From: an uncultured Saprospiraceae bacterium
GTDB taxonomy: Bacteria; Bacteroidota; Bacteroidia; Chitinophagales; Saprospiraceae
Assembly (NCBI GenBank): GCA_943788055.1
Contig: CALSOU010000001.1
Coordinates: 62,001-126,000, forward strand
Direction of reading: 5' to 3'
DNA length: 64,000 nucleotides
Shown here: positions 3,495 to 20,401 of the stretch, piece by piece
How positions within the stretch are numbered: the stretch's first letter is position 1
Layout of the letters: each line of letters begins with the position of its first letter
Program-made: the position numbers and the translations under genes
The notes under the pieces: model-generated
The model's input: the letters and a program-made list of their open reading frames with translations, nothing else
Told to the model about the DNA's origin: nothing
The model's database searches: none

Positions 3495-3572
3495 TTTAAG
3501 TCAGTATACGTAAAAGATGAGATGACGGAACATGACTTACCGTCAAAAATTTAAATCATAAAACATAAAAAA

Positions 3573-4418
3573 ATGCAGGTACCATTTCTTTTTGGAAAAT
3601 ATAGAAATCTTCAGTTTGCTTTCTTATATATAGCTCTTGTTCTACTAGTTGTTGGTTGCGATAGGAATGAAACTCAAACTGTAACAACTTTCACAAGCCT
3701 TACTTTTGAAGATGACTTCAATAGCGAAGGCGAAATCGATGAGTCGGTGTGGAACTTTGATCTAGGAACGGGAGATGAAATCTCTGGAGCAGGTTGGGGA
3801 AATAACGAGCAGCAGTATTATACAAATAGACCGGAGAATATCACAGTGGAAGGAGGAATGCTTAAATTAACTGTTTTACAAGAGTCATTTATGGGTTCAG
3901 GTTATACGTCAGCTCGAATTAACACCAAAGGTAAATTGGAACAAGAGTATGGAAGAATCGAGGCTCGAATTCAATTGCCTTGGGGGAAAGGACTTTGGCC
4001 GGCATTTTGGATGCTCGGAAATAACATTGATGAAGTAAGTTGGCCACAGTGCGGCGAAATCGATATTATGGAGTATAGAGGTCAAAATCCATCGACTCTA
4101 ATTGGCAGTGTGCACGGTCCTGGTTATTCTGGTGGAGAATCGGAAGGCAAGGAGTACGTATTAGCCAATGATAGGTTTGATACAGGATTTCATGTTTTTG
4201 GAGTAGAGTGGGGGCCTGAGTACATTAACTACTATGTTGACGATGCTTTATATAACCAGATTACTCCCGAAGATGTAGATGGAGAATGGGTATTTGATCA
4301 TCCTTTCTGTATTATTTTGAATGTTGCAGTTGGTGGTAATTTTGTCGGTCCACCTAATGTCAACACAGTATTTCCTCAGACCATGCTAGTGGATTGGGTG
4401 AGAGTGTATGAAGAGTAG
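3573..4418 (+). CDS. GH16 endo-beta-1,3-glucanase (laminarinase), lipoprotein
   Basis: The GH16 signature GEIDIMEYRG is intact, with nucleophile E162, helper D164 and acid/base E167, and the surrounding segments (GWGNNEQQYYT, GLWPAFWML) are typical of laminarinases. The family cuts internal beta-1,3 bonds of laminarin with retention. The signal peptide ends in VVGC (Cys29), so the enzyme should be lipid-anchored in the outer membrane or periplasm. The protein is a single catalytic domain of normal length (281 residues) without extra binding modules; these are supplied by the preceding gene. The A-rich leader directly before the ATG fits Bacteroidota. It belongs to a same-strand cluster ending in a sugar symporter. 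Confidence 0.92.
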   Translation: MQVPFLFGKYRNLQFAFLYIALVLLVVGCDRNETQTVTTFTSLTFEDDFNSEGEIDESVWNFDLGTGDEISGAGWGNNEQQYYTNRPENITVEGGMLKLTVLQESFMGSGYTSARINTKGKLEQEYGRIEARIQLPWGKGLWPAFWMLGNNIDEVSWPQCGEIDIMEYRGQNPSTLIGSVHGPGYSGGESEGKEYVLANDRFDTGFHVFGVEWGPEYINYYVDDALYNQITPEDVDGEWVFDHPFCIILNVAVGGNFVGPPNVNTVFPQTMLVDWVRVYEE

Positions 4419-4510
4419 AAATGTTTAGATTTTTGAAAAGATTAAATGCTTAGACAAAGTCACCATAGACCTTGTAGATTGATAGAATACTTATAGAACA
4501 AAAGAGATTA

Positions 4511-7500
4511 ATGGAGAAGATATTAGCAACGTCAATTGCACCAATCACCCAAGTAAAAATCGGAAATGATCACTACTTTAAGATTTCAAACAGCGACTCG
4601 CTTCGACCATTCTTTATGAGTGTTGTCAGTGACTCAAACCATTGGATGTTCATTTCTAGTAACGGTGGTTTAAGTGCTGGTCGAAAGGATTCTGAAAATG
4701 CATTGTTTCCGTACTACACGGACGATAAGATTGCGGAGTCGGTCGAAACGACTGGTAGTAAGACAATTTTTAGAGTGAATGTTGATAAAATAACAAAGAT
4801 CTGGGAGCCTTTTTCTGATAGGTATGAGGGTATGTACAAGATTCAAAGGAACTTGTATAAAAGTATCTACGGGAACAAAGTACTTTTTGAAGAGATCAAT
4901 CATGACTTGAATCTCACATATCGTTATCAATGGTCCTCAAGTAATTTGTTCGGTTTTGTTAGAACATCTTCCTTGACGAATAATTCAAAGAAAACTGTTT
5001 CAGTTGAATTTGTTGATGGTATTCAAAATATTGTACCATATGGTGTAGGTAGTGCAATCCAAAATCAATCTAGCAACCTTGTGGATGCCTATAAAAGAAG
5101 CGAGCTAGTTAAGGATTCAGGATTAGGAATCTATGCCTTGAGTGCAATCATAGTTGACAAGGCAGAACCAAGTGAAGCATTAAAAGCAAATGTAGTTTGG
5201 TCGCTTGGCTTGAATAACCCAAAGTACTTGCTTTCATCTCGGCAGCTCAAGAAGTTTAGGAATAATAGAAATATTCAAGAGGAGCTCGATGTGAAAGCTG
5301 AAAAAGGAGCTTATTTTCTTAATACGAGAATAGAATTGGAACCTGATACAAAAAGGCAGTGGAAGATCATTGCAGAAGTAAATAAGGATCATTCGACAAT
5401 CGTAGAACTTTCAGAGTTAATTAAACACGAAGAGCAACTATCTCAAAAGGTCGAGGCTAATATTGATCTTGGCACTACAAAACTCATTGAATTAAATGCA
5501 ACAGCGGACGCTTTTCAGCTAACAGCTGATAATTTTAGAGATTCAAGACACTTCTCCAATGTCCTATTTAATATCATGAGAGGTGGTATTTTTGACAATA
5601 ATTATCAGATAGAAAAATGCGACTTCACAAATTATCTTGCTAATGCAAACAGCGAAGTTTTTGAGAGTTCTCAAGAATGGACAAACGAACTTCCTGATGT
5701 TTTCTCGCTTTCTGATTTAAAGGACCTTGCCAATAAAGCAAGTAGTAGTAATTTGAAAAGACTCTGTCTCGAATACATGCCTTTGAAGTTTAGCAGACGC
5801 CACGGTGATCCAAGCAGACCTTGGAACAAATTTTCGATTAATACTCGAAGTGAAGTAGATGGATCTAAAATATTGGACTACGAAGGTAATTGGAGAGATA
5901 TTTTTCAAAATTGGGAAGCTCTTGCACTTTCATATCCTGAGTTTATTGAAAGCATGATTCACAAATTCTTGAACGCTTCCACATTTGATGGTTATAATCC
6001 ATATCGTATTACAAAAGGAGGTATCGATTGGGAAACCATTGAACCGGACGATCCTTGGTCATATATAGGATATTGGGGTGATCATCAGATCATATATCTT
6101 TTGAAATTGCTAGAAATTATTGAAAGTCATTATCCAGGTAAATTGGAGACTTACTTTGAACAAGAAATTTTTGTGTACGCAAATGTTCCCTACAAGATTA
6201 AGGCATATGCTGATATTTTAAAGAATCCAAAGGACACCATAGAATTTGATGAAGAGGCTGATCATAGTATTCGAGCGCAAAAATCTTCTCTAGGTGCCGA
6301 TGGAGCTTTACTGAGAGATGGAAAGGGTGCTATTTACACAGTGAATCTTATCGAAAAGATTCTAGCTACCACATTGGCCAAGATATCTAATTTCATACCT
6401 GAGGGTGGTATCTGGATGAACACTCAACGACCGGAATGGAACGATGCCAACAATGCGTTGGTAGGAAACGGAGTTTCTATGGTTACCTTGTACTATTTGC
6501 GTAGGTTCTTAAAATTCTTTGAAGGACTTATGGACTCATGTAATCTAGAGAGCGTGCAAGTGTCGAATGAGGTTGTCGATTTCTATAAAAGAGTTCGAGA
6601 GGCATTGGTTACACATCAAGATACAATTGATGAACCTGTAAACGATTCATTCCGAAAATCCTTATTAGATGCACTAGGAAAGGCAGCCAGTGACTTTAGA
6701 GGGCAAGTCTATGAACATTCATTTTGGGGAAGAAAAAGAACTATTTCAACAGACGGAATAAGGAGGTTCATTAAAGTAAGCCTTAAATATCTAGAGCATT
6801 CGATAGATTCAAACAAGAGAAGCGATAATCTATATCACGCTTATAATTTGATGACTGTTGAGAATGACGAGGAGGTATCGATTTCTTACTTGAGTGAAAT
6901 GCTTGAAGGTCAAGTTGCCGTGCTGTCTTCAGGGTATTTATCATCAAAAGAGGCTCTAGATGTCCTTGACAGTCTAAAAAGTAGTGCACTTTTTAGAGAA
7001 GATCAGTATAGCTATCTCTTATATCCCAATAAGGATCTTCCGAAATTTATTGAAAAAAATACAATTCCTCGCGAGCATATTAATTCTTGTGAACTTCTTG
7101 CCCATCTAGTTAAAGATGGCAATATTCAGATAGTTAGTAAAGACATTTTAGGTGACTATCATTTTAATGGAAATTTCAAGAATGCTGCTAATCTGGAGTT
7201 TGCGATGGAAAACCTTAGCAAAACAAAGTATGCAGAACTTGTAAGCAAGGAAAAACAAAATGTGCTTGACATTTTTGAGCAAGTTTTTAATCATAAAGCA
7301 TTTACAGGTCGTTCTGGCACATTCTTCGGATACGAAGGATTAGGATCCATATATTGGCATATGGTTTCAAAATTACTTTTAGCAGCGCAAGAAGTTTGTT
7401 TGCAAGCAATTGCAAGTAATGAAACAGAGGAAGTAATTGGTAGACTACTCGAGCACTACTACGAAATAAACGAAGGTATAGGTGTCCACAAACCGCCTTC

Positions 7501-7954
7501 TTTGTATGGAGCATTCCCAACCGACCCTTATTCACATACACCTGCAGGTAAAGGAGCCCAACAGCCAGGTATGACTGGCCAGGTCAAGGAAGACATTTTG
7601 AGTAGATTTGGAGAGTTAGGTGTGTTTGTAAGTGATGGCCAACTTTGCTTTGTTCCAGGACTCTTGAGAAAGGATGAATTCTTGACAGAAAGCAAAGTAT
7701 TTAACTATGTAGACGTACATGGAAGGCAACAGAGTATTAGACTAGAGCCCAAAATGCTTTGTTTTACTTATTGCCAGGTACCTGTAGTTTACAGTATTGG
7801 TAATACTAGAGGAATAATTGTTGCCAGAAAAGACGGCAACAGCGAGCAAACAAAAAGTTTAAAAATTGATGAAGATACAAGTACTGAGATATTCAAAAGA
7901 ACAGGTGAAATAGTAAAATTAGAGGTAACACTAGAAGCACGACAATTAAGATAA
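4511..7954 (+). CDS. Beta-1,3-oligoglucan phosphorylase, GH149 type
   Basis: This 1147-residue protein has no signal peptide and should be cytoplasmic. It has the architecture of GH94-related phosphorylases: an N-terminal beta-sandwich part and an (alpha/alpha)6-barrel part. The latter holds RPEWNDANN, with D645 at the place of the general acid Asp in the GH94 WND motif. GH94 proteins are usually about 800 residues, whereas GH149 enzymes are about 1100, and GH149 genes are known beside GH16, GH17 and GH30. The family converts beta-1,3-gluco-oligosaccharides plus phosphate to glucose-1-phosphate. Here it would process oligosaccharides brought in by the symporter downstream. GH161 is the main alternative; sequence search against both families would decide. 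Confidence 0.8.
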   Translation: MEKILATSIAPITQVKIGNDHYFKISNSDSLRPFFMSVVSDSNHWMFISSNGGLSAGRKDSENALFPYYTDDKIAESVETTGSKTIFRVNVDKITKIWEPFSDRYEGMYKIQRNLYKSIYGNKVLFEEINHDLNLTYRYQWSSSNLFGFVRTSSLTNNSKKTVSVEFVDGIQNIVPYGVGSAIQNQSSNLVDAYKRSELVKDSGLGIYALSAIIVDKAEPSEALKANVVWSLGLNNPKYLLSSRQLKKFRNNRNIQEELDVKAEKGAYFLNTRIELEPDTKRQWKIIAEVNKDHSTIVELSELIKHEEQLSQKVEANIDLGTTKLIELNATADAFQLTADNFRDSRHFSNVLFNIMRGGIFDNNYQIEKCDFTNYLANANSEVFESSQEWTNELPDVFSLSDLKDLANKASSSNLKRLCLEYMPLKFSRRHGDPSRPWNKFSINTRSEVDGSKILDYEGNWRDIFQNWEALALSYPEFIESMIHKFLNASTFDGYNPYRITKGGIDWETIEPDDPWSYIGYWGDHQIIYLLKLLEIIESHYPGKLETYFEQEIFVYANVPYKIKAYADILKNPKDTIEFDEEADHSIRAQKSSLGADGALLRDGKGAIYTVNLIEKILATTLAKISNFIPEGGIWMNTQRPEWNDANNALVGNGVSMVTLYYLRRFLKFFEGLMDSCNLESVQVSNEVVDFYKRVREALVTHQDTIDEPVNDSFRKSLLDALGKAASDFRGQVYEHSFWGRKRTISTDGIRRFIKVSLKYLEHSIDSNKRSDNLYHAYNLMTVENDEEVSISYLSEMLEGQVAVLSSGYLSSKEALDVLDSLKSSALFREDQYSYLLYPNKDLPKFIEKNTIPREHINSCELLAHLVKDGNIQIVSKDILGDYHFNGNFKNAANLEFAMENLSKTKYAELVSKEKQNVLDIFEQVFNHKAFTGRSGTFFGYEGLGSIYWHMVSKLLLAAQEVCLQAIASNETEEVIGRLLEHYYEINEGIGVHKPPSLYGAFPTDPYSHTPAGKGAQQPGMTGQVKEDILSRFGELGVFVSDGQLCFVPGLLRKDEFLTESKVFNYVDVHGRQQSIRLEPKMLCFTYCQVPVVYSIGNTRGIIVARKDGNSEQTKSLKIDEDTSTEIFKRTGEIVKLEVTLEARQLR

Positions 7955-8008
7955 TATCCATTTAGTAAGTAGTAGTATTGAACTATAGAAAATCAATAAC
8001 AATATACG

Positions 8009-9250
8009 ATGACTTGGACAATTAAGATACTTTTCATGGCTATAGTAATATCGACAAGTTTTTCTTGTGAAGTGAAAAATGCAGAGTCGTTATTGGGCAG
8101 TCCTGATTACTTGGCAATGTCTTACGGTGGTTACAGATATATAGATCATAATATTGAGCCAACTTTAGACGAGTTGAAGGAAGATTTAAAATTACTTTCA
8201 GCTATGGACATAAAGTTTCTACGAACATACAAAGTTCATCGTCCTCAAGCATCAAATCTATTAAAGGCTATCAGCGAACTGAAAAATGATGATCCAAGTT
8301 TTGAAATGTTTGTGATGCTAGGAGCTTGGATAAGCTGTAAAAATCCATTTACGGACAAACCAGACCACACAGCAGAAAGTGAAGATAATGAGGAAGAAAT
8401 CGCTACAGCGGTTGAACTTGCTAATAAATACTCAGATATCGTAAAGGTATTAGCTGTTGGTAATGAGGCGATGGTTAAGTGGGCAGCAAGTTATTATGTT
8501 GAACCAGGTGTTATTCTGAAATGGGTTAACCACCTACAAGAGATGAAGAAATCAGGTAAACTATCAAAAGATCTGTGGATAACTAGCTCCGACAATTTCG
8601 CGTCATGGGGAGGAGGATCAGATGAATATCATGTTGAAGATCTAGAAAACTTAATTAAGGCGGTTGATTACATATCTGTGCACACTTATCCTATGCATGA
8701 TACCCATTATAATCCAGATTTCTGGGGAGTGGAGGAAGATGAAACGGAATTATCAGATATCGAAAAAATTGATGCTGCAATGCTCCGTGCAAAAGAGTAT
8801 TCCATGGCTCAGTACAATGAAGTCTACAAATACATGAAGAGTAGAGGAGTGGATAAACCTATCCATATCGGAGAAACTGGTTGGGCGAGTTTTTCAAATG
8901 GACACTATGGAAATGATGGGTCAAAAGCTACAGATGAATTGAAGCAAGCTATCTATTATGAGCACATGCGAGAATGGACTAACAAAGAAGGTATTGCTTG
9001 CTTTTATTTCGAAGCCTTTGATGAAAAATGGAAGGACGCAAAAAATCAAGGTGGCTCAGAAAATCACTTTGGCTTGTTTAAGGTTAATGGTGAAGCTAAG
9101 TATGTCCTTTGGGACTTGGTAGATGCAGGTGTTTTTGAAGGTCTGTCAAGAGGTGGTAATACGATTACAAAGACTTATGGAGGAAGCAAGGAATACTTGA
9201 TGTCAGAAGTTGAATTACCTCAAGTCAAAGAAATGGAAACACAAGATTAG
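8009..9250 (+). CDS. GH17 beta-1,3-glucanase, lipoprotein
   Basis: A lipobox (SFSC, Cys20) follows a short signal peptide. The GH17 fold is shown by the acid/base motif VGNEAMVKW (E153) and the nucleophile motif HIGETGW (E289), together with SVHTYPM between them. GH17 enzymes from Bacteroidota act on unbranched beta-1,3-glucan or its oligosaccharides, as endo- or exo-enzymes or as transglycosylases. The length of 413 residues is normal for a single domain. The gene lies 54 bases after the phosphorylase gene and 42 before the GH30 gene, and probably shares their transcript. The two catalytic Glu residues make activity likely; the exact mode of action cannot be read from sequence. Confidence 0.9.
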   Translation: MTWTIKILFMAIVISTSFSCEVKNAESLLGSPDYLAMSYGGYRYIDHNIEPTLDELKEDLKLLSAMDIKFLRTYKVHRPQASNLLKAISELKNDDPSFEMFVMLGAWISCKNPFTDKPDHTAESEDNEEEIATAVELANKYSDIVKVLAVGNEAMVKWAASYYVEPGVILKWVNHLQEMKKSGKLSKDLWITSSDNFASWGGGSDEYHVEDLENLIKAVDYISVHTYPMHDTHYNPDFWGVEEDETELSDIEKIDAAMLRAKEYSMAQYNEVYKYMKSRGVDKPIHIGETGWASFSNGHYGNDGSKATDELKQAIYYEHMREWTNKEGIACFYFEAFDEKWKDAKNQGGSENHFGLFKVNGEAKYVLWDLVDAGVFEGLSRGGNTITKTYGGSKEYLMSEVELPQVKEMETQD

Positions 9251-9292
9251 CGATGGTTATGACCGCATTTTAAAAATTACAAAAATTCAATA

Positions 9293-10783
9293 ATGAAGTT
9301 ATTAAAATTATTTTTGATCTCCACAGTAATCATTGGAATGAATAGCGCATGTAATCACGAAACAAAATTAGAAGTTGAAATCTATGAAACTGCATCCAAT
9401 GGAAATAAGCTAAAGCGAATAACACAATTTCAAGAAGCTGAGACTTCTGCTAGCATAAAGTTGAATCCTAACAAAAGCTTTCAGACAATCACTGGTATTG
9501 GAGGATCATTTACTGAATCTTCTGCTTACCTCTTGAATCAATTGAGTGAAGAGAATCGAACTAAAGTCTTAGAAGCTTATTTTGGAGATGAGGGAGCTAG
9601 ATATTCTTTGACTCGAACACATATTAACTCGTGTGACTTCTCTCTAAGTAATTATTCCTATGCACCGACTCCGGGAGATACAGAGCTTAAGGACTTTTCT
9701 GTTAAAGAGGATATGGATGACCTGATTCCTATGATCAAAGATGCCATGGTGATCTCATCAGATGGTTTTAAAATCATATCCTCTCCGTGGACTGCACCGC
9801 CTTGGATGAAAGACAATAATAGTTACGTAGGAGGGAAACTACTTCAGGAGTATTATGAAATTTGGGCATTGTTCTTTTCCAAATATATTCAAGCTTACAA
9901 AGACCAGGGTATCGATATCTGGGGCCTCACCGTCGAGAATGAACCTCTTGGAAACGCTAACAATTGGGAAAGTATGCACTATACGGCAGAGGAGATGACG
10001 GATTTTGTAAGTAAGCATTTGGGGCCAAAATTAGAGCAGGATGGTTTCAGTGATGTAGTTTTATTAGGTTATGATCAGAATCGCGATCATCTTAAGGAGT
10101 GGGTTGACGTAATGTACAATGACGAAGGGTCTTCCAAGTATTTTGACGGTACAGCCATTCATTGGTATGCAAGTACATTTGAAGTCTTTCCTGAAGTTCT
10201 ACAATATGCCCATGATAAAGCACCTAATAAATATCTAATCGAGACAGAGGGTTGTGCTGATGCGGAAGTTCCACATTGGCAGGAAGATGAATGGTACTGG
10301 AGTAAAGAGGCTACTGATTGGGGGTGGGACTGGGCTTCTGAAGAAGAAAAGCCCTTGCATCCCAAGTATGTACCAGTATACAGATATGCTCGAGATATAA
10401 TTGGATGTCTTAATAATTGGGTTGATGGTTGGGTAGACTGGAATTTGCTCTTGGATCGTCAGGGTGGTCCCAACTGGTTCAAAAACTGGTGCCTAGCTCC
10501 AGTTATTGTTGATCCTGAAGCTGACGAAGTGTATATGACACCGATATACTACGCGATGGCTCACTTCAGCAAGTATATACGACCTGGTGCAAAGCGGATT
10601 GATTTCACCAATAATTCTGAATTGCAGGTTACAGCTGTAAAGAATCCCGATAGCGCTATTGTAATTATCATCTTAAACGAATCCGAAGAATCTCAGAATA
10701 TCGAGCTAGACCTTGAAGATAAAAAGACTAAATTTTCTATTAGCTCGCAAGCTATTCAGACAGTTATAATTCCAACTACATAA
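9293..10783 (+). CDS. GH30 glucanase (beta-1,6- or beta-1,3/1,6-type), lipoprotein
   Basis: A signal peptide ends in NSAC (Cys20). The start of the barrel has the typical GIGGSFTESSAYLL, the acid/base lies in TVENEPLG (E217) and the nucleophile in IETEGC (E319). A C-terminal beta-sandwich closes the protein, as in GH30 subfamilies 1 and 3. GH30_3 enzymes remove beta-1,6-linked glucose branches of laminarin, which would complement GH16 and GH17 in this cluster. Subfamily assignment is inference from context. The gene is intact, of normal length (496 residues) and precedes the transporter gene by about 100 bases. Confidence 0.88.
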   Translation: MKLLKLFLISTVIIGMNSACNHETKLEVEIYETASNGNKLKRITQFQEAETSASIKLNPNKSFQTITGIGGSFTESSAYLLNQLSEENRTKVLEAYFGDEGARYSLTRTHINSCDFSLSNYSYAPTPGDTELKDFSVKEDMDDLIPMIKDAMVISSDGFKIISSPWTAPPWMKDNNSYVGGKLLQEYYEIWALFFSKYIQAYKDQGIDIWGLTVENEPLGNANNWESMHYTAEEMTDFVSKHLGPKLEQDGFSDVVLLGYDQNRDHLKEWVDVMYNDEGSSKYFDGTAIHWYASTFEVFPEVLQYAHDKAPNKYLIETEGCADAEVPHWQEDEWYWSKEATDWGWDWASEEEKPLHPKYVPVYRYARDIIGCLNNWVDGWVDWNLLLDRQGGPNWFKNWCLAPVIVDPEADEVYMTPIYYAMAHFSKYIRPGAKRIDFTNNSELQVTAVKNPDSAIVIIILNESEESQNIELDLEDKKTKFSISSQAIQTVIIPTT

Positions 10784-10882
10784 AATATGTGATCTATTTG
10801 CAATTTGAAAATTGTGTCCTTGCCATATAAATAGCGAAATTGATCCTTGAAAATAAAAATTAAACTAAAATCTACCCAGTAA

Positions 10883-12322
10883 ATGAAAGAAGCTGCGATT
10901 ACTACCAAGAAAATTCCCTTTGGACAGAAGATAGCCTTTGGTATCGGTATGTTTGCCAATCAAATGTTTCCTGCGATCTTGGGGATATTTATGGTGGTTT
11001 TAGTACAAGATTTGGGTTTCCCGGGTTGGATGTGGGGATTAATCTTCTTTGCGCCGAGAATCTTTGATGCGATAACCGACCCATTGATGGGCTTTATTTC
11101 GGATAACACGAAATCCAAGTGGGGTAGAAGAAGGCAATATGTATTTATTGGTGGTCTAGTTATGGGAATTGCCTTCATCATTATGTGGCAGTTGTACAAA
11201 GAGAATTCGCTTGAGTATAATTTTTGGTATTTCTTTATTTGGTCTATCGTCTTTTATTTCGGTTTGACAATATTTAGTGTGCCCTATGTGGCTATGGGGT
11301 ACGAGATGACTGATGACTTTCACGAGAGAACTAATATAATGGCCGTGGCTCAATGGATTGGCCAATGGGCTTGGGTTATTGCTCCTTGGTTCTGGATTAT
11401 CATGTACGATCCTTCTTGGTTCCCGTCTGCAGAAGCTGCTACGCGACAATTGGCAATTTGGGTCGGAATACCATGTGCTATAGCAGCAATGGTACCTGCT
11501 ATTTTTATCAAAAGTGAATCGACTGTAGATAAAGATTACCTTCCCCTTAATGTCTCAAATATCGGCTCGAGCCTAATGAAAATACTGATGGGATTTGTTG
11601 ACGCATTTAAACTCAAGCCCTTTCGAAAAATTTGTATTGCTACATTTTTGATATACAATTCCTTTAATACAGTGGCTTCATTAACATTCTTTGTGATTGT
11701 ATTTAAACTGTTCAATGGAGATGCAGCTGCAACTGGTGTCTGGGTAGTTTTATTTGGATGCTTGGGAGCTCTGGGAACTACATTCTTAGTGATTCCGATT
11801 ATTACAAAAATGTCGAAATGGTGGGGTAAGAAAAATGCATTTATAGTAGGGCAATCCATTTCAATTATAGGTTACGTGATGCTATATTTCCTATTCATCC
11901 CTGGCAAGCCTTGGATGTATATTTTTGCTTTACCTTTCTTTTCTTTTGGGATCGGAAGTCTTTTTACGATAATGATGTCTATGACTGCTGATATTCTTGA
12001 CATTGACGAGTTGAATACAGGAGAAAGAAGAGAGGGTATCTTTGGAGCGATTTATTGGTGGATGGTTAAAGTTGGTTTTGCTATAGCAGGTGGTCTAAGC
12101 GGTGTAATCATATTCGTTGTTGGGTTTGATCCTGAGCTTGCAACTATTGATCAACAGGCCGCTGTTGATAATCTGCATGTGTTCTTTTGTTTCTTTCCGG
12201 TGGTAGGTACAGTTCTAGCAATTTTTGTAATGCGTAACTATAGTATTACTGAGGAGCGATCTAACGAAATCAGAGCTCAACTAGATGCAAGAAAAGTCTC
12301 TGCTCCAAAAATATGTAATTAA
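10883..12322 (+). CDS. GPH-family sugar:cation symporter (MFS)
   Basis: A 479-residue protein with about twelve hydrophobic segments. Near the N terminus the segment FDAITDPLMGFISDNTKSKW followed by GRRR is the hallmark loop of the glycoside-pentoside-hexuronide (MelB-like) symporters. These inner-membrane proteins import oligosaccharides or glycosides with sodium or protons. As the last gene of the glucan cluster it most likely imports laminari-oligosaccharides or glucose for the cytoplasmic phosphorylase. The substrate is inferred. The frame is intact. After its stop come about 460 bases with only a decayed lipoprotein gene, which marks the end of the locus. Confidence 0.85.
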   Translation: MKEAAITTKKIPFGQKIAFGIGMFANQMFPAILGIFMVVLVQDLGFPGWMWGLIFFAPRIFDAITDPLMGFISDNTKSKWGRRRQYVFIGGLVMGIAFIIMWQLYKENSLEYNFWYFFIWSIVFYFGLTIFSVPYVAMGYEMTDDFHERTNIMAVAQWIGQWAWVIAPWFWIIMYDPSWFPSAEAATRQLAIWVGIPCAIAAMVPAIFIKSESTVDKDYLPLNVSNIGSSLMKILMGFVDAFKLKPFRKICIATFLIYNSFNTVASLTFFVIVFKLFNGDAAATGVWVVLFGCLGALGTTFLVIPIITKMSKWWGKKNAFIVGQSISIIGYVMLYFLFIPGKPWMYIFALPFFSFGIGSLFTIMMSMTADILDIDELNTGERREGIFGAIYWWMVKVGFAIAGGLSGVIIFVVGFDPELATIDQQAAVDNLHVFFCFFPVVGTVLAIFVMRNYSITEERSNEIRAQLDARKVSAPKICN

Positions 12323-12601: not shown

Positions 12602-12788
12602 GGTTTTATCTTTAACTAATTAAAGTTCACAAGCAACATACGCGGACGAGTTGTGGTCTAGCTTATAATTAGACGTTAACGGAAAATAGAAATCATCTTC
12701 CTTGTGAGTCGAATATTCAGCGTTGTCTTAAGTAAAACTTGGGAAAGTTGATTGATTTACTAGTTATGTCAATAAATTTAGTTTGCCC

Positions 12789-13715
12789 ATGTTTAGAATA
12801 GGAATATACAGAATCATCGTTTTCATTTTGTTTGTAGGACTGCAAATTTCATGTGATTCAAGGCTTGAGGAAGTAATAACAGACAACGATTCTTACTCGA
12901 CGACAGGGATTTCGAAGATCAAGATCGAAAATTATGTAAATCGTCTATTTATTGACATTATTGGCAGGGAACCGACGGATATAGAACAATCGATTGAAGT
13001 AGATTCTATAAATGAGAATGATTTAAGTGAGGAATCGAGACTTGATCTGATTTATAGGTTAATGACAGATACGACTTATAGTATTAATGAAGGTTCTTAT
13101 CATGAAGCCTACTGCAATAACCTTTACTTACTAGGAAAAATAAGATGCCTTGATGGCATACCAGATGCAGAGTTCTATAAGAGTATTGGTACGATCAAAA
13201 TGGGACTTTATCAAGATTCTTTAGATCAGAACTGGGAATCCTATTACGGTAAGTTAAATCAAATTCGTAGACTTGAATTAGTTGTGGGTTCTGTAAAAAG
13301 ACTCCAGAACTATGAATTAGCATATCATGAGATGTTTGGATTCATGATTGATAACTCAATATACGACGTTTTGAATATGAACACGTTTAACTTCGTACGT
13401 GCGAGTTTTGATCAATTGCTTTTTAGGATACCTACCGAACAAGAATATGTTCAAGCATTTGAAATGGTTGAGTCTGGAAAACCAAGTGAGCTATTGGGAG
13501 AAACAGGAAATAGCAAAGAAGACTATGTTAGAATCATGATCAATTCAACTGCTATGAAGGAGGGGATGATTCGCTGGGCATTCCAAGTTTTTCTGCAGAG
13601 ACCTGGTAGTCCAAGCGAGATTGCAACGCTCTTGGAAGAATATAAGATACATGAAGACATAAATCAAATAATTGCTAAAATCGTAGTGACTGATGAATAT
13701 GCAAATTTTTACTAA
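12789..13715 (+). CDS. Lipoprotein with DUF4214/DUF1549-like helical repeats
   Basis: The ATG here gives a clean signal peptide with lipobox QISC (Cys22); a TTG two codons upstream is less likely. The body is helical and has three similar segments around R-x-P-T/S-x-x-E (IIGREPTDIE, LFRIPTEQE, and LQRPGSPSE), each followed by helices, ending in VTDEYANFY. This resembles DUF4214-type repeats or the start of DUF1549 domains, but I cannot name the family firmly. It opens a six-gene operon and its 3' end overlaps the next lipoprotein gene by 23 bases. Location should be the periplasmic side of the envelope or the cell surface. Function unknown. Confidence 0.7.
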   Translation: MFRIGIYRIIVFILFVGLQISCDSRLEEVITDNDSYSTTGISKIKIENYVNRLFIDIIGREPTDIEQSIEVDSINENDLSEESRLDLIYRLMTDTTYSINEGSYHEAYCNNLYLLGKIRCLDGIPDAEFYKSIGTIKMGLYQDSLDQNWESYYGKLNQIRRLELVVGSVKRLQNYELAYHEMFGFMIDNSIYDVLNMNTFNFVRASFDQLLFRIPTEQEYVQAFEMVESGKPSELLGETGNSKEDYVRIMINSTAMKEGMIRWAFQVFLQRPGSPSEIATLLEEYKIHEDINQIIAKIVVTDEYANFY

Positions 13716-14187
13716 GCTGTGTTTCTTGTTCATCGTCGTCCTAGGCTTGACGGCATGTCAAGAAGATATATATGAAGTATACGAGATAAACTCCGTTGAA
13801 GTTCTTCCTGTGAATGCACAGAAGAACAAGGCCAAGACGGATGCTCAGTATGTATCTATCTTGTATACAAATTTCTTCCAAGTTCCAATTGGACCCAATA
13901 AGTTATTGGAGGCTTTAGATGCAATCCGTTCTATTGGTGATAAGCAGATTTCTTATGATATAATAGTTAGTAAGTACTTGAATCAAAGTCCAGATCTGCC
14001 AACAAAGGAAGAAATGTATGCAGACCCTGAGACATTTGTTTATGATACGTATAAGCGATTTCTTACACGGCAGCCGACAGAAGCTGAGTTAGCTTGGATG
14101 TTGAATTATATTACAAGCAATCCTTCTTTAGCACCCGATATTGTTTATTTAGCCTTTGCTACTTCCAATGAACATTATTACTATTAA
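13693..14187 (+). CDS. Small lipoprotein related to its upstream neighbour
   Basis: A 164-residue protein with signal peptide and lipobox GLTAC (Cys22); a second Met at residue 3 is equally possible as start. Its C-terminal third, with FLTRQPTEAE followed by LAPDIVYLAFATSNEHYYY, repeats the R-x-P-T-x-x-E plus terminal aromatic pattern of the preceding 309-residue lipoprotein. The two are probably paralogous halves of one assembly. It overlaps the upstream gene and lies six bases before the DUF1501 gene, so co-translation is likely. No catalytic residues are evident and the function is unknown. Confidence 0.7.
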   Translation: MNMQIFTKLCFLFIVVLGLTACQEDIYEVYEINSVEVLPVNAQKNKAKTDAQYVSILYTNFFQVPIGPNKLLEALDAIRSIGDKQISYDIIVSKYLNQSPDLPTKEEMYADPETFVYDTYKRFLTRQPTEAELAWMLNYITSNPSLAPDIVYLAFATSNEHYYY

Positions 14188-14193
14188 TATCCT

Positions 14194-15543
14194 ATGAAAA
14201 GAAGACAATTTATAAAGAATACAGCTGGAGCAGCATTATCAAGTAGCCTATTCCCCTACATCCTTCCGAGTGGGATTATAAATTCATCGATGGCTTCTCC
14301 ATTGGCAGATCATGTTGTATTTGTACTTTTTGCAGGAGGAGTAAGGCAACAGGAATCAGTTTTGATGAGGTATCTGGCAGGAAGTCAAAATGAGAATGTG
14401 GAAGGAAATATTCTCTATAATATGTTAAATGGTGCACCACCTGAAACAAAGATCGCTTACGGACAAGATGATACAGAGAATGATCTGGTTGGACATATTC
14501 CAATAGATGCATTATTGCAAACACCACTTGAATCTCAAGGGACGCTTTTTCCAGAAGTGAGATACGCCAAGGGAGGCACAGGACATTTTGGCGGTTTATT
14601 GACGGGAGTATCTGGGAATTATTCTTCAGTGGATGTTGGAGGTCTTCAGAAGAGGCCTGCAGCTCCGACTATTTTTGAGTATCTTAGAAAGCACGCTGGG
14701 TTTAAAGCTACAGATACGTGGTACGTGGGTTTGGGCACATCAGGCTCAAGACCTCTTTTAAATCACTCATTACATCCCGATTATGGACGTAGATACGCTG
14801 GTAACTTTATAGCCCCCACAGTGACATTTGGTTCACCTGGACAAAATCATTTCATGAATTTTAAGAATTATCATGAAACTGATGAATGGAATAAGGCTTT
14901 AGAAATCAGAAACTTTTTGAATCAAAGCTTCAGTAAGGAGGGGTTTGAAATTCCACACCTTTACAATACAGATAGTGAAGATAATAGTATTAAGAGTTTT
15001 GTGAAAAGCATATTTGCTAAAAATGGCAATATATTTCTACCTCCTGTAAACGATAATCAAGATCTAAAAGTTATAGGGTACACCCTTGAATTGCTGCATT
15101 GGTTTAAGCCAAAAGTTACGGTTGTAGATTTATCTAATGTAGATGTTTGTCATGGAAACTTTACAGGTTATTTAAAGAATATGCACAGGGCAGATCACGG
15201 AATTGGATTCTTATGGAGAGAAATTCAAAAAATCCCAGGCATGGCAGGAAATACTGCAATGATCGTAATGCCCGAACATGGAAGAGATTTGGAACCCAAC
15301 TCTATTCAAGATGACAACGATTGGTATGCATACGATCATTCAGGTGGGAATTCTAGAAGAATATTCACGCTGATGGTGGGAGCAGGAATCGATGCAGGAC
15401 TAAGAGTTGGTGGAGAAGGTAATCCCGTGGGGGATGCCGCAGATGTTGTTCCTACAATTGCTGATATTTTTGGTATTAAACAGACAGTGTACGATAAGGG
15501 ATTGATTGACCCGAACGCTCGGTCTTTATTTGATAGATTATGA
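14194..15543 (+). CDS. DUF1501-like protein (alkaline phosphatase/sulfatase fold), Tat signal
   Basis: The N terminus MKRRQFIKNTAGAAL is a twin-arginine type signal. The C-terminal half has the layout of the alkaline phosphatase superfamily as seen in DUF1501: TVVDLSNVDVCHG, a central HRADHGIGF, MIVMPEHGRD, and a closing DVVPTIADIFGI. Residues such as D, H and E in these segments could bind metal, but the Thr or Ser nucleophile of true phosphatases is not obvious. DUF1501 proteins of Bacteroidota and Planctomycetes are commonly encoded next to DUF1800 or DUF1549 partners; here the partners are the two preceding lipoproteins. The stop codon overlaps the ATG of the next gene (ATGA). Confidence 0.75.
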   Translation: MKRRQFIKNTAGAALSSSLFPYILPSGIINSSMASPLADHVVFVLFAGGVRQQESVLMRYLAGSQNENVEGNILYNMLNGAPPETKIAYGQDDTENDLVGHIPIDALLQTPLESQGTLFPEVRYAKGGTGHFGGLLTGVSGNYSSVDVGGLQKRPAAPTIFEYLRKHAGFKATDTWYVGLGTSGSRPLLNHSLHPDYGRRYAGNFIAPTVTFGSPGQNHFMNFKNYHETDEWNKALEIRNFLNQSFSKEGFEIPHLYNTDSEDNSIKSFVKSIFAKNGNIFLPPVNDNQDLKVIGYTLELLHWFKPKVTVVDLSNVDVCHGNFTGYLKNMHRADHGIGFLWREIQKIPGMAGNTAMIVMPEHGRDLEPNSIQDDNDWYAYDHSGGNSRRIFTLMVGAGIDAGLRVGGEGNPVGDAADVVPTIADIFGIKQTVYDKGLIDPNARSLFDRL

Positions 15544-16493
15544 TAAGATATTTGAAATTCATTCCATTTGTTGGTTTTCTCAGCATTTTGATTTTTTTAA
15601 GTCAATCTTGTGAAAGGTCTGCGATTATTGAAGCCAATCCATTTGAGAATAATGTTAAGAATCAGGACACAGTAAATTTTGAAATAAAAGATATTGATCC
15701 TAACTCAATAGCGGGTTTATATCAGAATATCTTCAAGCCTACTTGTGCCAATGTGGGGTGTCATGACGGTACTTTCGAACCTGATTTTAGAACAATTGAG
15801 AGTTCTTATCACTCTATGGTGTATAGAGTCCCAATCAAAAATGATGGAAGCCTTACCTATAGAGTAGATCCTGGAAATCCCAATACTTCTGCAATTCTGA
15901 ACAGGATGAGCGGAACAATTCAGCCACCAATGCCGATCGAAATTGAACCGGACGGAGATTGGTTGGAAAAAGAGGAGGAGTACATGGAAAATGTCCGAAA
16001 TTGGATCGAGAATGGTGCTTTAGATTTGGCAGGTAATTCTCCAGAACCTGATATTGTTAAGCCAAGCCTTGTTGGTGCGGTAGCGATGTTTGATGGAGAA
16101 GTATTAGGACGTCAGGATGGTTATGGTTCTATAAGAATCCCAGATTCTGTGGACGTATTGGAAATTTATCTGAGTTTTGATACTTTGAATAATCCGGAGT
16201 TATTTACCAATAACGAATTAGCTTTCGGAAATGAAACTGATGGAGAATTTCAAGAAGCTATATATGTTGAAATGGAGGTGATGTTGAATCCTATTTACCA
16301 GTTTGGGCTTTATGGAACCTTAACACAGTTTACACATCGAGTTGAAATCGACTTTGAGGGACTTCAGTTGTTGGAAGATTCCTATTTTATGAGAGTTCGA
16401 GTGCAAGATGGACCACATCCTATAACAGAAATACCAGCAAACGATGGATTATATTACATTAAAGAATACATGTCTTTTTTTAGGGTTAATTAG
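15540..16493 (+). CDS. Lipoprotein with cytochrome-like CX4CH motif
   Basis: Signal peptide with lipobox SQSC (Cys24). Residues 69-75 read CANVGCH, a CX4CH motif inside a segment (NIFKPTCANVGCHDG) that resembles the N-terminal part of PSCyt1-type cytochrome domains, where CXXCH normally binds haem. A later Met-rich PPMPIE segment could supply an axial ligand. Whether haem is bound is not known; CX4CH is rare but exists in some c-type cytochromes. The C-terminal part is a beta-rich domain. The gene starts inside the stop of the DUF1501 gene and its 3' end overlaps the next gene by 50 bases, so it is part of the six-gene operon. Confidence 0.7.
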   Translation: MIRYLKFIPFVGFLSILIFLSQSCERSAIIEANPFENNVKNQDTVNFEIKDIDPNSIAGLYQNIFKPTCANVGCHDGTFEPDFRTIESSYHSMVYRVPIKNDGSLTYRVDPGNPNTSAILNRMSGTIQPPMPIEIEPDGDWLEKEEEYMENVRNWIENGALDLAGNSPEPDIVKPSLVGAVAMFDGEVLGRQDGYGSIRIPDSVDVLEIYLSFDTLNNPELFTNNELAFGNETDGEFQEAIYVEMEVMLNPIYQFGLYGTLTQFTHRVEIDFEGLQLLEDSYFMRVRVQDGPHPITEIPANDGLYYIKEYMSFFRVN

Positions 16494-16908
16494 TTTCTCG
16501 CTTTCAACTTCGTCATGTACAAAAGACCAAGTTGATGAGATATCAGTTATACCTAGCATAGAATTATTATCAATATCAAGCGATACAATCAAAGAATTTG
16601 AAGACGAATTGATAATCATTATCGCATATGAAGATGGGGATGGAGACTTAGGTTTCGAGGAGACTGATCAATATGCCTTGTTTGTAAGAGATATAAGATT
16701 AGAGGAGTTTGACGATTTCTATGTAGGACCAATTGCTCCTCCAGGAGTGAATGTGCCTATTACAGGTAACTTTAATATAGAGTTTCCAAGCTTATTTCTT
16801 TTTGGAAACGGAAATTACGAAACAACCAGATTTGAAATTAGAATGGTTGACCGAAGAATGAACGAAAGCAACCTGTTAGTAACTGAAGAGATAATTATTA
16901 AGAAGTGA
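16444..16908 (+). CDS. Small beta-rich lipoprotein
   Basis: A 154-residue protein with a signal peptide ending in TSSC (Cys25). The start inside the preceding gene (50-base overlap) is the only ATG that preserves the signal peptide. The mature part carries an acidic AYEDGDGDLGFEETDQY segment that resembles calcium-binding or Ig-like folds, followed by beta-strands ending in EIIIKK. Similar small lipoproteins often stand next to CHU_C proteins in Bacteroidota. Only one base separates its stop from the ATG of the giant surface protein. Function unknown. Confidence 0.65.
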   Translation: MDYITLKNTCLFLGLISFSLSTSSCTKDQVDEISVIPSIELLSISSDTIKEFEDELIIIIAYEDGDGDLGFEETDQYALFVRDIRLEEFDDFYVGPIAPPGVNVPITGNFNIEFPSLFLFGNGNYETTRFEIRMVDRRMNESNLLVTEEIIIKK

Positions 16909-16909
16909 T

Positions 16910-19900
16910 ATGAGATTAGTAAGTTATCTTATTACAGCCTTTTTCTTTATTGGTGTCCAAAGCAACTTGTACGCTCAATATATGATGCAAAATGCACTAG
17001 TAACTGACTGTGAAGGAACCCTCTCAGATAGTGACGAGGGACCTGGAGAAGATCAATATGATCATAATGAAGACTTTACTTTCACGATCTGTGTTGAAGG
17101 TGCATCCGCTATTACAGCAATCTTTGACTTTTTTGCCACAGAAGACACATATGACGTTTTAGCAGTTTATGACGGTCCTGATATTAATTCACCTCTTATT
17201 GCGGAATTATCGGGAGTATTGACAAACCCACCAACTCTTGTTGCTACTTCGGGCTGCATGACTTTTCACTTTGTATCTGACGATAATATTCTTGCTAAAG
17301 GATGGTTTTTGGAATGGATGGTAGAAGTCGATGAGTTTGCCGACCCTGATTTAACAATTGATTCACCATTGGACTGTCCTCTAGGATCCCTCGATGTAAC
17401 TATTGATCCAAGAATTCCTTGCAAAATTATCAGACCAGAAAATTTTCAATTGCTAGGTCCAGATGGAGCAGGAATTTCAAACGCGATTGCCTTGGACTGT
17501 GATGTAGATTCGACGGCTTCTATGTTCACTTTAGTGTTTGACGATAGTTTGAGTATAGCTGGAAACTACCAGATTATTTTTGATGGATATTTAGTCAATT
17601 CATGTAATGACAGCTTGTATTTAGAATCTCTTCTAAGTTTTCAGCTATCTGATTGTCCTTTTGATGTTGAAATTGTAGTAGTTGAACAAGCTTGCTTAGG
17701 GGATTGTGGTGAGCTAGAAGTTGAGATTTATAGTTCTGATATTGGTCCCTATGAAATTAGTTGGTCTCATACGTTTATAGATTCAGAGGTGGTTGAAATA
17801 TGCAGTGACACAATGATTTTAGTTACAGTTAGCGTTGAAAATGTCAATACTGGCACTACAGATAGTGACCAATACTTATATAGCTCTCTACCAGAACCTA
17901 AAATCTTGAATCCTTTCATGTCTGATACATTTTGTTCGACTTATGGAGAACATACATACAATGTTGACATACCAGGAGGCTTATGGACTTCTGATATAAT
18001 GAATAATGACGCAGATCGTCGATATAGATTTTGGCGATGGAGTGGATCTACGGGTTTACAGCAAGACTTTATTACTTATACGGATCCCAATGGTTGCGTT
18101 ACCTATGATACAGTTTTTGTGATACCAATTGATGCTGGATTAGATCAATCAGTTTGTATAGGACAAGATCAGTTGCAGTTAACTGGTAATAATACTAATG
18201 ATGGAAGTTGGCAAGGACCCAACACTACAACTGATGGTATTTTTACCACTACTGTTGCAGACACATTCGAAGTATCATTTATAAATAATGAAGGATGTGA
18301 GGATTTCAAAAGAGTCTTTGTGATTGATTCTATCGAATTTATAGAGATAGATACGATATGCAGTAACCAACGGGTTGATCTGTCAAACTACGTCAATTCT
18401 CTCGGGGGTACTTGGTCAGGTCCAGGCATTGGAAATTGGTATTTAGGCCGCTTAAGAGCATGGAAAGCCAACATCAATGCATGGAATACTTATTACTATG
18501 AAGTAGAAGGGTGCATTGATAGTCTGGAGATTTACGTGCAGGGGATTTGGGCAGGACCCGATCAGACTATTTGCTTGGAAACAGATGTTATACAATTAAA
18601 TAAAACTGGTGAATGGATAGGTCCTGGGGTATATAGTCCGTTGGATAGCACTTATGACGTAAGTACGTTGGGGCCTGGAAAATATGATGTTAGATTGCGG
18701 CAAGGCGGTTGTCAAGATGATTTTAAATTGACTATTTATGATGTATACTTGGACTTAAATGGACCAGATAGATATTGCTACAACACAGGATTAATTCCTT
18801 TGAGAGATGTTGTGACATCCAATCCCAAAGATGGTTTGTTTTCTGGAGAGGGAGTAGTTCAGAATGCAGGAGATTTGTTTTTTGATCCCTCGCTCGTTAC
18901 GGGAACGGTGACTCATGTCTATTTTGAAACACTTGGTTGCATAGATTCAGTTTTGATTAACATTGAAAAAGCCCTTGCACTTGATGATTATGTGTTTTGT
19001 GAAATCGGAAGTTTACAGAATTTAGACAATCAGGGTAACAGCGGTTATTGGGAAGGGCAGGGGGTTTTGATCCCAGAAACAGGATTGATCAATCCAGCCG
19101 AACTCACAGTTGGAAATAATGAAGTTTATTTTATAACTGAATTTGGATGTGTTAATCCGGTATCGATCGAATTATTGGCTTTTGCGGAAGCTGTAATTGA
19201 TAACATTGATGATAGTTATTGCTTCCAAGATACTAACTACATTGTTGACTTATCACCAGCAGCTGGAACTTTTATGATTGATGGTAATGTTTCAGCTCCA
19301 CAGATAAATCCGTCTGAGCTAGGATTTGGTAATCACGAATTAGAATATATTGTTGGTTTCGGAGAATGTGAAGATCGGCAAAGTGTCTATATAGCTGTAT
19401 CTGCTGCTATTTCGGGAGATGCCTACGCATTGAGAGATACGCTTTGTCCTAATGAGTCCACTTCTATTTTTGTTGATACTCAAGGAGGAGCTGATGACAT
19501 CGTTGCGATTTGGAGTCCAGGTCTGGGTTTTGGTAAAAGTCACTTTATATCCCCTGCTCAGAGCACGACTTATAATGTCACTCTTTCTGACGGTTGCTCT
19601 GATGATTTTAATATTTCCCTTGGAATTCACGTAATTGATACTTTTGATGTTCCCGTGTCCTATGGACCTGAAGTGTGCTATGGTGATAGTTCATTTATTG
19701 ATCTTAACTTAGATGATCCTAGCGAGTACGAGATCACATGGGATGGAGAGCTTAGCCCAAATGGAAATGTCCTAGAAGAACTACCTGGCAGCTATTTCGT
19801 CAATATTATAAATCAAGAAACTGGTTGTCAACAAAACTATACATTGGAAGTCCCTGGAGCGGATCCACTTGGAGCAGGTTTTAACTACACCCCAAATCAA

Positions 19901-20401
19901 GAATGCATTGATTTGATAAACAATGAAATCAGCGTGGTAGATCTTGCCTTTGGATTTACAGAAGGCTACATGAATTTCGGTATTAACGAGGACCAAGTAG
20001 ATATTTTGACTGATGATCTAGTTTATGAGTATAATAATATTGGGACCTTTGCTATCACTCAAGTGGTCGCAAACGAACTAGGTTGCACTGATACCCTAGT
20101 CCGTGAGATTTGTGTCGAAAACGTTGTTAAAGTTTACGTGCCAAATATCTTTACGCCTGATGGCGACGGTATCAATGATCTATTTACAGTATATGGAATT
20201 GGAATTACTAATTTTTCGATGAGAATTTATGATAGATGGGGAACGCAACTTTATAGCTCTGATAATATCGAGGGTAGTTGGGATGGAATACATCTAGGTC
20301 AAAGGGTGCAAGCAGGAGTATATTCAGTTGTTATTCAGTATGAGAATTTAGAAACCGGCAGAGCTAGCACTGAATTTTTTCCATTGACAGTCGTAAGGTG
20401 A
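16910..20401 (+). CDS. Giant T9SS-secreted surface protein: CUB domain and CHU_C sorting domain
   Basis: A 1163-residue protein with an N-terminal signal peptide (about 1-23). A CUB-like domain follows (about 35-135, with the typical YDVLAVYDGPD). Then come about 900 residues of beta-rich repeats with paired Cys and W-x-G-P/G-x-G turns. The last ~85 residues form the gliding motility-associated C-terminal domain (VPNIFTPDGDGINDLF, YDRWGTQLYSS, GVYSVVIQY). That domain directs export by the type IX system and surface attachment. As the last gene of the DUF1501 operon it is probably the exposed partner of the upstream lipoproteins. Ligand unknown; adhesion or a scaffold are guesses. Frame intact over 3.5 kb. 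Confidence 0.88.
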   Translation: MRLVSYLITAFFFIGVQSNLYAQYMMQNALVTDCEGTLSDSDEGPGEDQYDHNEDFTFTICVEGASAITAIFDFFATEDTYDVLAVYDGPDINSPLIAELSGVLTNPPTLVATSGCMTFHFVSDDNILAKGWFLEWMVEVDEFADPDLTIDSPLDCPLGSLDVTIDPRIPCKIIRPENFQLLGPDGAGISNAIALDCDVDSTASMFTLVFDDSLSIAGNYQIIFDGYLVNSCNDSLYLESLLSFQLSDCPFDVEIVVVEQACLGDCGELEVEIYSSDIGPYEISWSHTFIDSEVVEICSDTMILVTVSVENVNTGTTDSDQYLYSSLPEPKILNPFMSDTFCSTYGEHTYNVDIPGGLWTSDIMNNDADRRYRFWRWSGSTGLQQDFITYTDPNGCVTYDTVFVIPIDAGLDQSVCIGQDQLQLTGNNTNDGSWQGPNTTTDGIFTTTVADTFEVSFINNEGCEDFKRVFVIDSIEFIEIDTICSNQRVDLSNYVNSLGGTWSGPGIGNWYLGRLRAWKANINAWNTYYYEVEGCIDSLEIYVQGIWAGPDQTICLETDVIQLNKTGEWIGPGVYSPLDSTYDVSTLGPGKYDVRLRQGGCQDDFKLTIYDVYLDLNGPDRYCYNTGLIPLRDVVTSNPKDGLFSGEGVVQNAGDLFFDPSLVTGTVTHVYFETLGCIDSVLINIEKALALDDYVFCEIGSLQNLDNQGNSGYWEGQGVLIPETGLINPAELTVGNNEVYFITEFGCVNPVSIELLAFAEAVIDNIDDSYCFQDTNYIVDLSPAAGTFMIDGNVSAPQINPSELGFGNHELEYIVGFGECEDRQSVYIAVSAAISGDAYALRDTLCPNESTSIFVDTQGGADDIVAIWSPGLGFGKSHFISPAQSTTYNVTLSDGCSDDFNISLGIHVIDTFDVPVSYGPEVCYGDSSFIDLNLDDPSEYEITWDGELSPNGNVLEELPGSYFVNIINQETGCQQNYTLEVPGADPLGAGFNYTPNQECIDLINNEISVVDLAFGFTEGYMNFGINEDQVDILTDDLVYEYNNIGTFAITQVVANELGCTDTLVREICVENVVKVYVPNIFTPDGDGINDLFTVYGIGITNFSMRIYDRWGTQLYSSDNIEGSWDGIHLGQRVQAGVYSVVIQYENLETGRASTEFFPLTVVR

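Follow-up and report, generated by a model that had tools for sequence, protein, structure and literature searches.

We analysed a 64,000-nucleotide stretch of DNA from an uncultured Saprospiraceae bacterium (GenBank assembly GCA_943788055.1, contig CALSOU010000001.1, positions 62,001 to 126,000 of the forward strand; hereafter the window) and found that six plus-strand open reading frames (ORFs) called at positions 12789-20401 form a real module, widely shared among uncultivated Saprospira relatives, whose five or six genes are inherited together. We refer to the first five genes, which form the core, as lp1, lp2, the DUF1501-like gene, cyt and lp5, and to the sixth gene as cub. Judged by sequence comparison, the operon appears to be a split, lipid-anchored relative of the pair formed by a PSCyt1-PSCyt2-PSD1 protein and a DUF1501 protein, a likeness that is strong for the products of cyt and the DUF1501-like gene and weaker for those of lp1 and lp2; we read the operon in this way because each domain of the canonical pair has a counterpart in it. 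An earlier annotation made from the window alone (the original prediction) had suggested that the six genes make up one envelope-spanning assembly. As a whole that interpretation is partly supported by the results below: the core genes behave as one unit, while an assembly spanning the envelope stays conjectural.

All six genes lie on the plus strand, with junctions in gene order of -23, +6, -4, -50 and +1 nt, exactly the gaps of at most six bases and three overlaps that had been described; the -50 nt junction between cyt and lp5 holds only if the first ATG is the true start. In order, they encode a lipoprotein resembling helical PBS-linker/DUF4214 proteins (lp1, 12789..13715, with the ORF start at 12783/12789), a short DUF4214 lipoprotein (lp2, 13693..14187), a Tat-type protein probably of the alkaline phosphatase/sulfatase superfamily (DUF1501-like gene, 14194..15543), a predicted monoheme c-type cytochrome lipoprotein with a PSCyt1-like domain and a variable C-terminal part (cyt, 15540..16493), a lipoprotein of Ig-like appearance with an acidic DGDGDLG motif (lp5, 16444..16908), and a protein with a CUB domain, repeats and a type B (CHU_C) sorting domain of the type IX secretion system (T9SS) (cub, 16910..20401). 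The proposal of four lipoproteins held up among aligned relatives: every lp2 and cyt sequence has the lipobox Cys, as do at least 90% of lp1 and lp5 sequences. The source genome (3.0 Mb in 13 contigs) encodes TatC of the twin-arginine translocation (Tat) pathway (E 1.3e-64), SprA (E 5.7e-126) and cytochrome c assembly genes, so that it is equipped for these export routes and for attaching heme. Scans for promoters (35 sites against 34.9 expected) and for terminators gave results at chance level, and the claim of a single transcript therefore rests on the overlaps and on conservation; no Rfam family and no tRNA was detected when the window was scanned for them. The four named relatives of the locus are all metagenome-assembled genomes, labelled as Saprospiraceae (two), Bacteroidetes and Flavobacteriales.

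To establish how far the set is conserved, we searched 298 genomes from the order for the DUF1501-like protein and obtained matches in 126 at E <= 0.001; 69 of these, including the window's own genome, reached 100 bits, the others being short or weak and many belonging to family f20. We examined 61 loci: the window and a further 60, drawn from 52 of the 68 remaining genomes. The original prediction had proposed co-conservation across genomes as a check, and the five core genes were indeed found together in 51 of the 61 loci, a few of them with a gene truncated where the contig stops. All 51 share a single gene order and strand, with median spacings across the core of -14, 18, 6 and -4 nt. Apart from cub, the most common flanking family occurred at only 4 of the 61 loci, counting up to two ORFs upstream and up to three downstream of the core (fewer at contig ends); this count lists cub as downstream, in a group of 26 loci that also includes the repeat proteins of L080 and L081. 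At one locus an inserted class V aminotransferase gene separates the DUF1501-like gene from cyt (L072:5732-6832). A phylum-wide sample of 395 genomes, with four candidates scored for each genome listed, contained a DUF1501-like gene at E <= 1e-30 in only two: the source genome of the window, and G338, a genome of the same class and another order, whose locus (L151) has all six genes in order.

Trees of the five core genes were built from 49 of the 51 complete loci, leaving out L084 and L093 (cut gene), and were rooted on L090. We divide the loci into clade A and clade B, and every one of the five trees groups the clade-A genes in a clade with the same 25 members; the A/B split by locus number is not a clean bipartition, and one clade is obtained in all five trees with L066 and L092 added. 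Pairwise distances correlate at 0.74-0.91, values never reached in 500 label permutations, a control that leaves shared species history in place. Eight genomes carry one clade-A copy and a second, more distant copy.

Ten of the 61 loci are without one or more core genes. Four of them (L046, L063, L065 and L085) run off the end of their contig; at L053 lp5 is matched only within a longer ORF continuing into cub, as observed in its shorter copy, L024; and L091 is a divergent locus without a recognisable lp5 and with a weak match at the lp2 position. The remaining four (L042 of genome G296, and L060, L062 and L064 of three f16 genomes) lack cyt next to their DUF1501-like gene, and a search covering L042, L062 and L064 found cyt elsewhere in each of these genomes. 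A search of G296 for five of the six genes placed them on four contigs: lp1 on C155, the DUF1501-like gene on C236, cyt on C231, and lp5 with cub on C240. All four f16 genomes searched (G043, G015, G056 and G030) encode cyt at E 2.1e-101 or better on a different contig from the DUF1501-like gene; cyt adjoins lp5 in two of the four f16 stretches, and lp1 and lp2 adjoin the DUF1501-like gene in both f16 loci examined (L062 and L064). Three module-free control genomes (G017, G031 and G020) had no lp1 at E <= 1e-10 and no cyt at E <= 1e-8. The retention of dispersed genes argues for a shared function: since the core genes that were sought are kept in the genome after the operon has fallen apart, they are probably needed together.

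The sixth gene follows a different pattern. As had been predicted for the last gene, its product combines a CUB domain with a sorting domain matched as CHU_C/T9SS type B at E 7.3e-18 and 5.2e-12, and the sorting domain together with SprA in the genome marks it as predicted T9SS cargo. Full-length relatives (>1000 bits) were found in 8/8 clade-A, 0/18 clade-B-only and 0/6 module-free genomes. These counts come from a separately built profile, A8 (13 rows, 24 candidates scored per genome), whose rows include proteins from six of the eight clade-A genomes searched and none from G294 or G296. It was used because an older, broader profile had drifted, also matching large repeat proteins near the clade-B loci L067, L080 and L081; that profile placed cub at 24 of 26 clade-A loci, the exceptions being L042, of the dispersed G296, and L046, which ends in cyt. 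We therefore rejected cub as a core member on its absence in full-length form from the clade-B-only genomes and regard it as a clade-A addition: the proposal of a single unit stands for the five core genes, with their joint occurrence, agreeing trees and retained pieces, and fails for the sixth. Two clade-A cub proteins are about 1460 residues long compared with the usual 1160 or so (L038:3795-8180 and L039:6767-11149), and G296 has an ORF of at least 4735 residues near its lone DUF1501-like gene (L161:1-14205 and L042) that is matched by the drifted cub profile at E 6e-140.

Of 61 copies of the DUF1501-like protein, 58 begin with a twin-arginine motif (R[RK]x[FL]), and given TatC in the genome the protein is a predicted Tat substrate. 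The Tat assignment of the original prediction thus stood, while its DUF1501 label proved looser: the window protein has no match to any Pfam family up to E 5, and the relation emerges through relatives and profiles. Among 37 relatives, Pfam matches at E <= 0.1 were to Sulfatase (12/37), Phosphodiest (8/37), Metalloenzyme (5/37) and DUF1501 (4/37), with a best relative E for DUF1501 (PF07394) of 1.9e-4 and the gathering score not reached. Profile-profile comparison by hhalign, whose E-values here and below apply to single pairs, gave a 388-column alignment of the family with the eight DUF1501 proteins that are paired with PSCyt (Prob 97.2, E 3.3e-11) and one of only 124 columns with ten other DUF1501 proteins (Prob 94.3). 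A search of the PDB with one canonical DUF1501 protein returned a single match, to an unrelated phosphatase at E 0.19.

Residues were compared across 55 DUF1501-like proteins, comprising the 37 relatives, the eight PSCyt-paired and the ten other DUF1501 proteins. G48, H131, D317, a His at +2/+3 from it, E/D361, R364 and H382 are kept in 55/55. H131 (14584..14586), a candidate active-site residue, is found in 37/37 relatives, 8/8 PSCyt-paired and 10/10 other DUF1501 proteins; D317-x2-H320 (15142..15153), candidate metal ligands present in 37/37 relatives, is replaced by DxH in 8/8 and 10/10 of the two DUF1501 groups. P360-E361-H362-G363-R364 (15271..15285) corresponds to the DHGR of sulfatases and the EFGR of DUF1501 proteins, E361-H362-G363-R364 aligning weakly with the DHGR of an S1_8A sulfatase (E 0.026), and D381-H382 (15334..15339) holds the last candidate metal ligand, H382. 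We take these kept residues to fit the second metal site and part of the first site of the superfamily, the first-strand Asp presumably having been lost; Gly48 occupies that place in 37/37 relatives, and T129 is a Thr in only 30/37. On the full-length profile match and the shared kept residues, we regard the link of the protein to DUF1501 as firm.

The product of cyt can be recognised from its sequence as a putative c-type cytochrome, a point overlooked in the original prediction and one that alters the probable role of the set. The heme-attachment motif C69-x4-C74-H75 (CANVGCH, 15744..15764) is invariant in all 33 members of the cyt alignment (A3), and CX4CH occurs in 56 of 57 copies, the sole exception being a 63-residue fragment cut by a contig end. 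M131-P132 (15930..15935), the likely distal heme ligand, is also invariant in 33/33, as are W155-I156 and A160. The cytochrome domain appears to be the essential part of the protein, because eight copies (163-175 residues) contain little else; the region C-terminal of it is fast evolving and is missing in several copies of the alignment, and this variable part may be partner- or substrate-specific. A match to Pfam PSCyt1 (PF07635) was obtained for only 1 of the 33 members (E 0.032). The cyt profile matched six of eight canonical proteins, in their PSCyt1 region, and hhalign against that region of the eight gave Prob 96.4 (E 1.2e-9). The PSCyt1-type CXXCH is absent, with CX4CH in its place in the 56 copies. 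Over the cytochrome domain, including the distal Met and the WI..GA helix, we consider cyt a homologue of PSCyt1.

The relationship of the linker-like lipoproteins is more distant. Window lp1 itself has no DUF4214, PBS_linker, PSD1 or PSCyt2 Pfam match; among its 35 aligned relatives (alignment A2), matches at E <= 0.1 were to DUF4214 (22/35), PBS_linker (16/35), PSD1 (7/35) and PSCyt2 (6/35), the best reaching 3.5e-4 for PSCyt2 and 2.3e-3 for PSD1, under the gathering scores of PF07583 and PF07587. The lp1 profile matched three of the eight canonical proteins, with whole-protein E-values from 7.6e-6 to 1.3e-7. Sequence matches of lp1 to phycobilisome linkers reached 1.8e-10 at best. A structural model of lp1, with a predicted local distance difference test (pLDDT) score of 64.6, matched a phycobilisome linker at Z ~6.2, close to the level of unrelated helical matches, and Foldseek with this model had no match at E <= 0.001, the two best-ranked entries being phycobilisome linkers with E above 2. 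For lp2, DUF4214 was matched at E 2.9e-6, passing the cut-off, and in 26 of 35 members, and hhalign aligned lp1 with lp2 at Prob 96.4; by this evidence part of lp1 has a paralogue in the shorter lp2. In lp5, D64, G67 and G70 of the DGDGDLG motif are invariant and G65 and D68 are kept in at least 90%, consistent with a possible calcium site. No convincing Pfam relative of lp5 was found (single weak matches), nor a PDB match up to E 10, and as a control it showed no relation to the canonical PSCyt protein (hhalign Prob 2.5).

The canonical pair, named for planctomycete-specific domains, consists of a PSCyt1-PSCyt2(DUF1549)-PSD1(DUF1553) protein and a DUF1501 protein, whose genes adjoin in the eight loci examined. 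It also occurs in the window's own family, in genomes G031, G044 and G057 (domain make-up checked at L136 and L141). Its counterparts in the operon are the PSCyt1-like cytochrome, the PSCyt2/PSD1-like helical protein and the DUF1501-like protein, the last with the same kept DUF1501 residues. The canonical domains are fused in one protein, whereas the operon encodes separate lipoproteins; the canonical protein has two CXXCH hemes in 8/8 cases and the operon one CX4CH; and the operon adds lp2, lp5 and, in clade A, cub. The suggestion in the original prediction that the lipoproteins are a reduced replacement of the usual DUF1501 partner is thereby borne out, with cyt resembling PSCyt1 and lp1 distantly resembling PSCyt2/PSD1. 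PSCyt2 matches number seven in G031, eight in G044 and five in G057 (L136-L141, L152, L153 and some of L096-L115), and Laminin_G_3, DUF2231 or LRR domains lie in or beside three of the eight canonical loci.

Other systems are less close. A DUF1800 and DUF1501 pair in the same genome (L147) likewise has a twin-arginine DUF1501 protein beside its partner; unlike the operon it has no cytochrome motif, and its DUF1501 protein ends in a T9SS tail. A DUF1800 neighbour was confirmed for two of the ten other DUF1501 proteins (L142 and L147). At L147:4241-7417 (G000:C6), DUF1800 is spread over two ORFs that overlap, of which the second does not reach the Pfam cut-off; next comes the DUF1501 protein, which starts with MKRRDFLR and carries a Por_Secre_tail domain, an apparent Tat-type start on T9SS cargo. 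FoxE (PDB 5mab), a diheme iron-oxidase cytochrome c, shares with cyt the Met-Pro and the WI..GA end of each cytochrome domain, M131-P132 aligning with RMPL/RMPP of both; the match is short and weak (E 8e-4), FoxE has two matched domains, and we know of no DUF1501 partner for it. Phycobilisome linkers and DUF4214 proteins resemble lp1 in sequence and perhaps in fold, and lp2 through DUF4214, but no phycobilisome is expected in the host, and the likeness would be one of linker fold and not of role.

No description of the five- or six-gene set was found in the open-access literature (the PubMed Central open subset, with subscription papers outside it), including the portions consulted of PMC5122149, PMC5615132, PMC2754498, PMC4452313 and PMC11495043, nor is a function of the canonical pair established in the open-access literature searched. 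Of the portions consulted, that of PMC5615132 states that 'nothing is known' about function and suggests a carbohydrate role, that of PMC2754498 cites an earlier suggestion that PSCyt2/PSD1 proteins take part in redox reactions, that of PMC4452313 describes DUF1501 as uncharacterised, and that of PMC5122149 proposes a link to bacterial chitin synthase genes.

Several observations weigh against reading the operon as a split form of the canonical pair that acts as a unit at the cell surface. The window proteins lie under the Pfam cut-offs of DUF1501, PSCyt1, PSCyt2 and PSD1. A plain profile of the DUF1501-like protein matches only one of the eight PSCyt-paired DUF1501 proteins (2.5e-5), and the two groups of DUF1501 proteins, PSCyt-paired and other, resemble one another more (Prob 99.3) than the DUF1501-like protein resembles either group; the AlphaFold model of the window's protein, from a five-row alignment, was poor (pLDDT 39.5) and was used for no fold search. 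The lp1 profile misses five of the eight canonical proteins at E <= 0.1, and its separate matches are weak at the PSCyt2 start (0.02 to 0.96) and lie at 3e-4 to 6e-4 at the PSD1 end; hhalign against the canonical protein gave Prob 70.6 for lp1, best in the PSD1 region, and 41.9 for lp2. The second canonical heme is absent, a heme-like motif being found in 0/59 lp1 copies. Agreement between the gene trees is also expected from shared species history, and the surface position of the lipoproteins depends on what we take to be an export signal, a Lys and then Asp or Glu after the lipobox Cys.

With these points counted, we lean, by somewhat more than even chances, to the view that the operon encodes a split relative of the PSCyt/DUF1501 pair in which a metalloenzyme at the outer membrane acts together with a monoheme cytochrome and linker-like lipoproteins. 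The strict heme site and the D/H/E/H set of kept residues point to chemistry and not to mere structure, export by Tat suggests folding in the cytoplasm, perhaps with a metal, and the linker-like lipoproteins suggest docking. In such a scheme the DUF1501-like protein would fold and take up metal in the cytoplasm and leave by Tat; the linker-fold lipoproteins would dock it at the outer membrane next to the cytochrome, which would carry electrons to or from its reaction; and the cub protein, where present, may hold the substrate or a neighbouring surface outside the cell. An extracellular glycan or other polymer as substrate is a guess. The window also contains, at 1566-12322, a beta-glucan (perhaps laminarin) utilisation neighbourhood with GH16, GH17, GH30 and an MFS_2 sugar transporter, as well as a 1147-residue protein (4511-7954) with no Pfam match at E <= 0.001; we drew no substrate from this adjoining locus because the neighbourhood is not common to the other loci.

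Most weight goes to a metalloenzyme with a dedicated electron carrier, then to a plain ester hydrolase and then to a scaffold or adhesion device. As a hydrolase complex, the DUF1501-like protein would be a sulfatase- or phosphodiesterase-type enzyme and the cytochrome domain purely structural or substrate-binding, with no electron transfer. Sulfatase and Phosphodiest are the commonest Pfam matches of the relatives, and the EHGR segment aligns with the sulfatase DHGR; but the first-strand Asp of the superfamily is replaced by Gly48 throughout, T129, which stands where the nucleophile would be expected, is not strictly kept, and the heme motif and Met-Pro are as strictly kept as the best enzyme residues, so that we think this unlikely. 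Somewhat more doubtful is a non-catalytic surface layer or attachment organelle built of the linker-fold lipoproteins and the CUB/CHU_C protein, with the DUF1501-like protein as assembly factor. The lp1 matches are to scaffold proteins and full-length cub accompanies clade A in every genome tested, yet the core occurs without it in 18/18 clade-B-only genomes tested, and a pure scaffold needs neither a strictly kept heme nor putative metal residues.

That the operon is a coincidental grouping of unrelated exported proteins in one lineage might seem in keeping with the rarity of the DUF1501-like gene outside the order, but it is very hard to reconcile with all five genes in most loci, sharp boundaries, agreeing trees and genes kept when dispersed, and we give it next to no credence. 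Returning to the metalloenzyme with its electron carrier, a broader and decidedly speculative extension is that DUF1501-type proteins in general are not hydrolases but metal-dependent redox enzymes on an alkaline phosphatase fold, which would acquire one metal ahead of export by Tat and be fed electrons by a dedicated cytochrome; the kept half of the metal centre, holding that metal, would then comprise the Asp and two His, plus the Glu.

The PSCyt/DUF1501 pair is well spread and unexplained, and what is new here is its split, lipid-anchored version of five or six genes. Their retention together suggests that cytochrome, DUF1501-like protein and linker lipoprotein form a set, and with one domain per small gene the parts can be expressed, deleted and pulled down singly. 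If the redox reading of DUF1501-type proteins is true, the split operon would be a taken-apart form of a large class of oxidoreductases of the outer envelope, extending from Planctomycetes to Bacteroidota.

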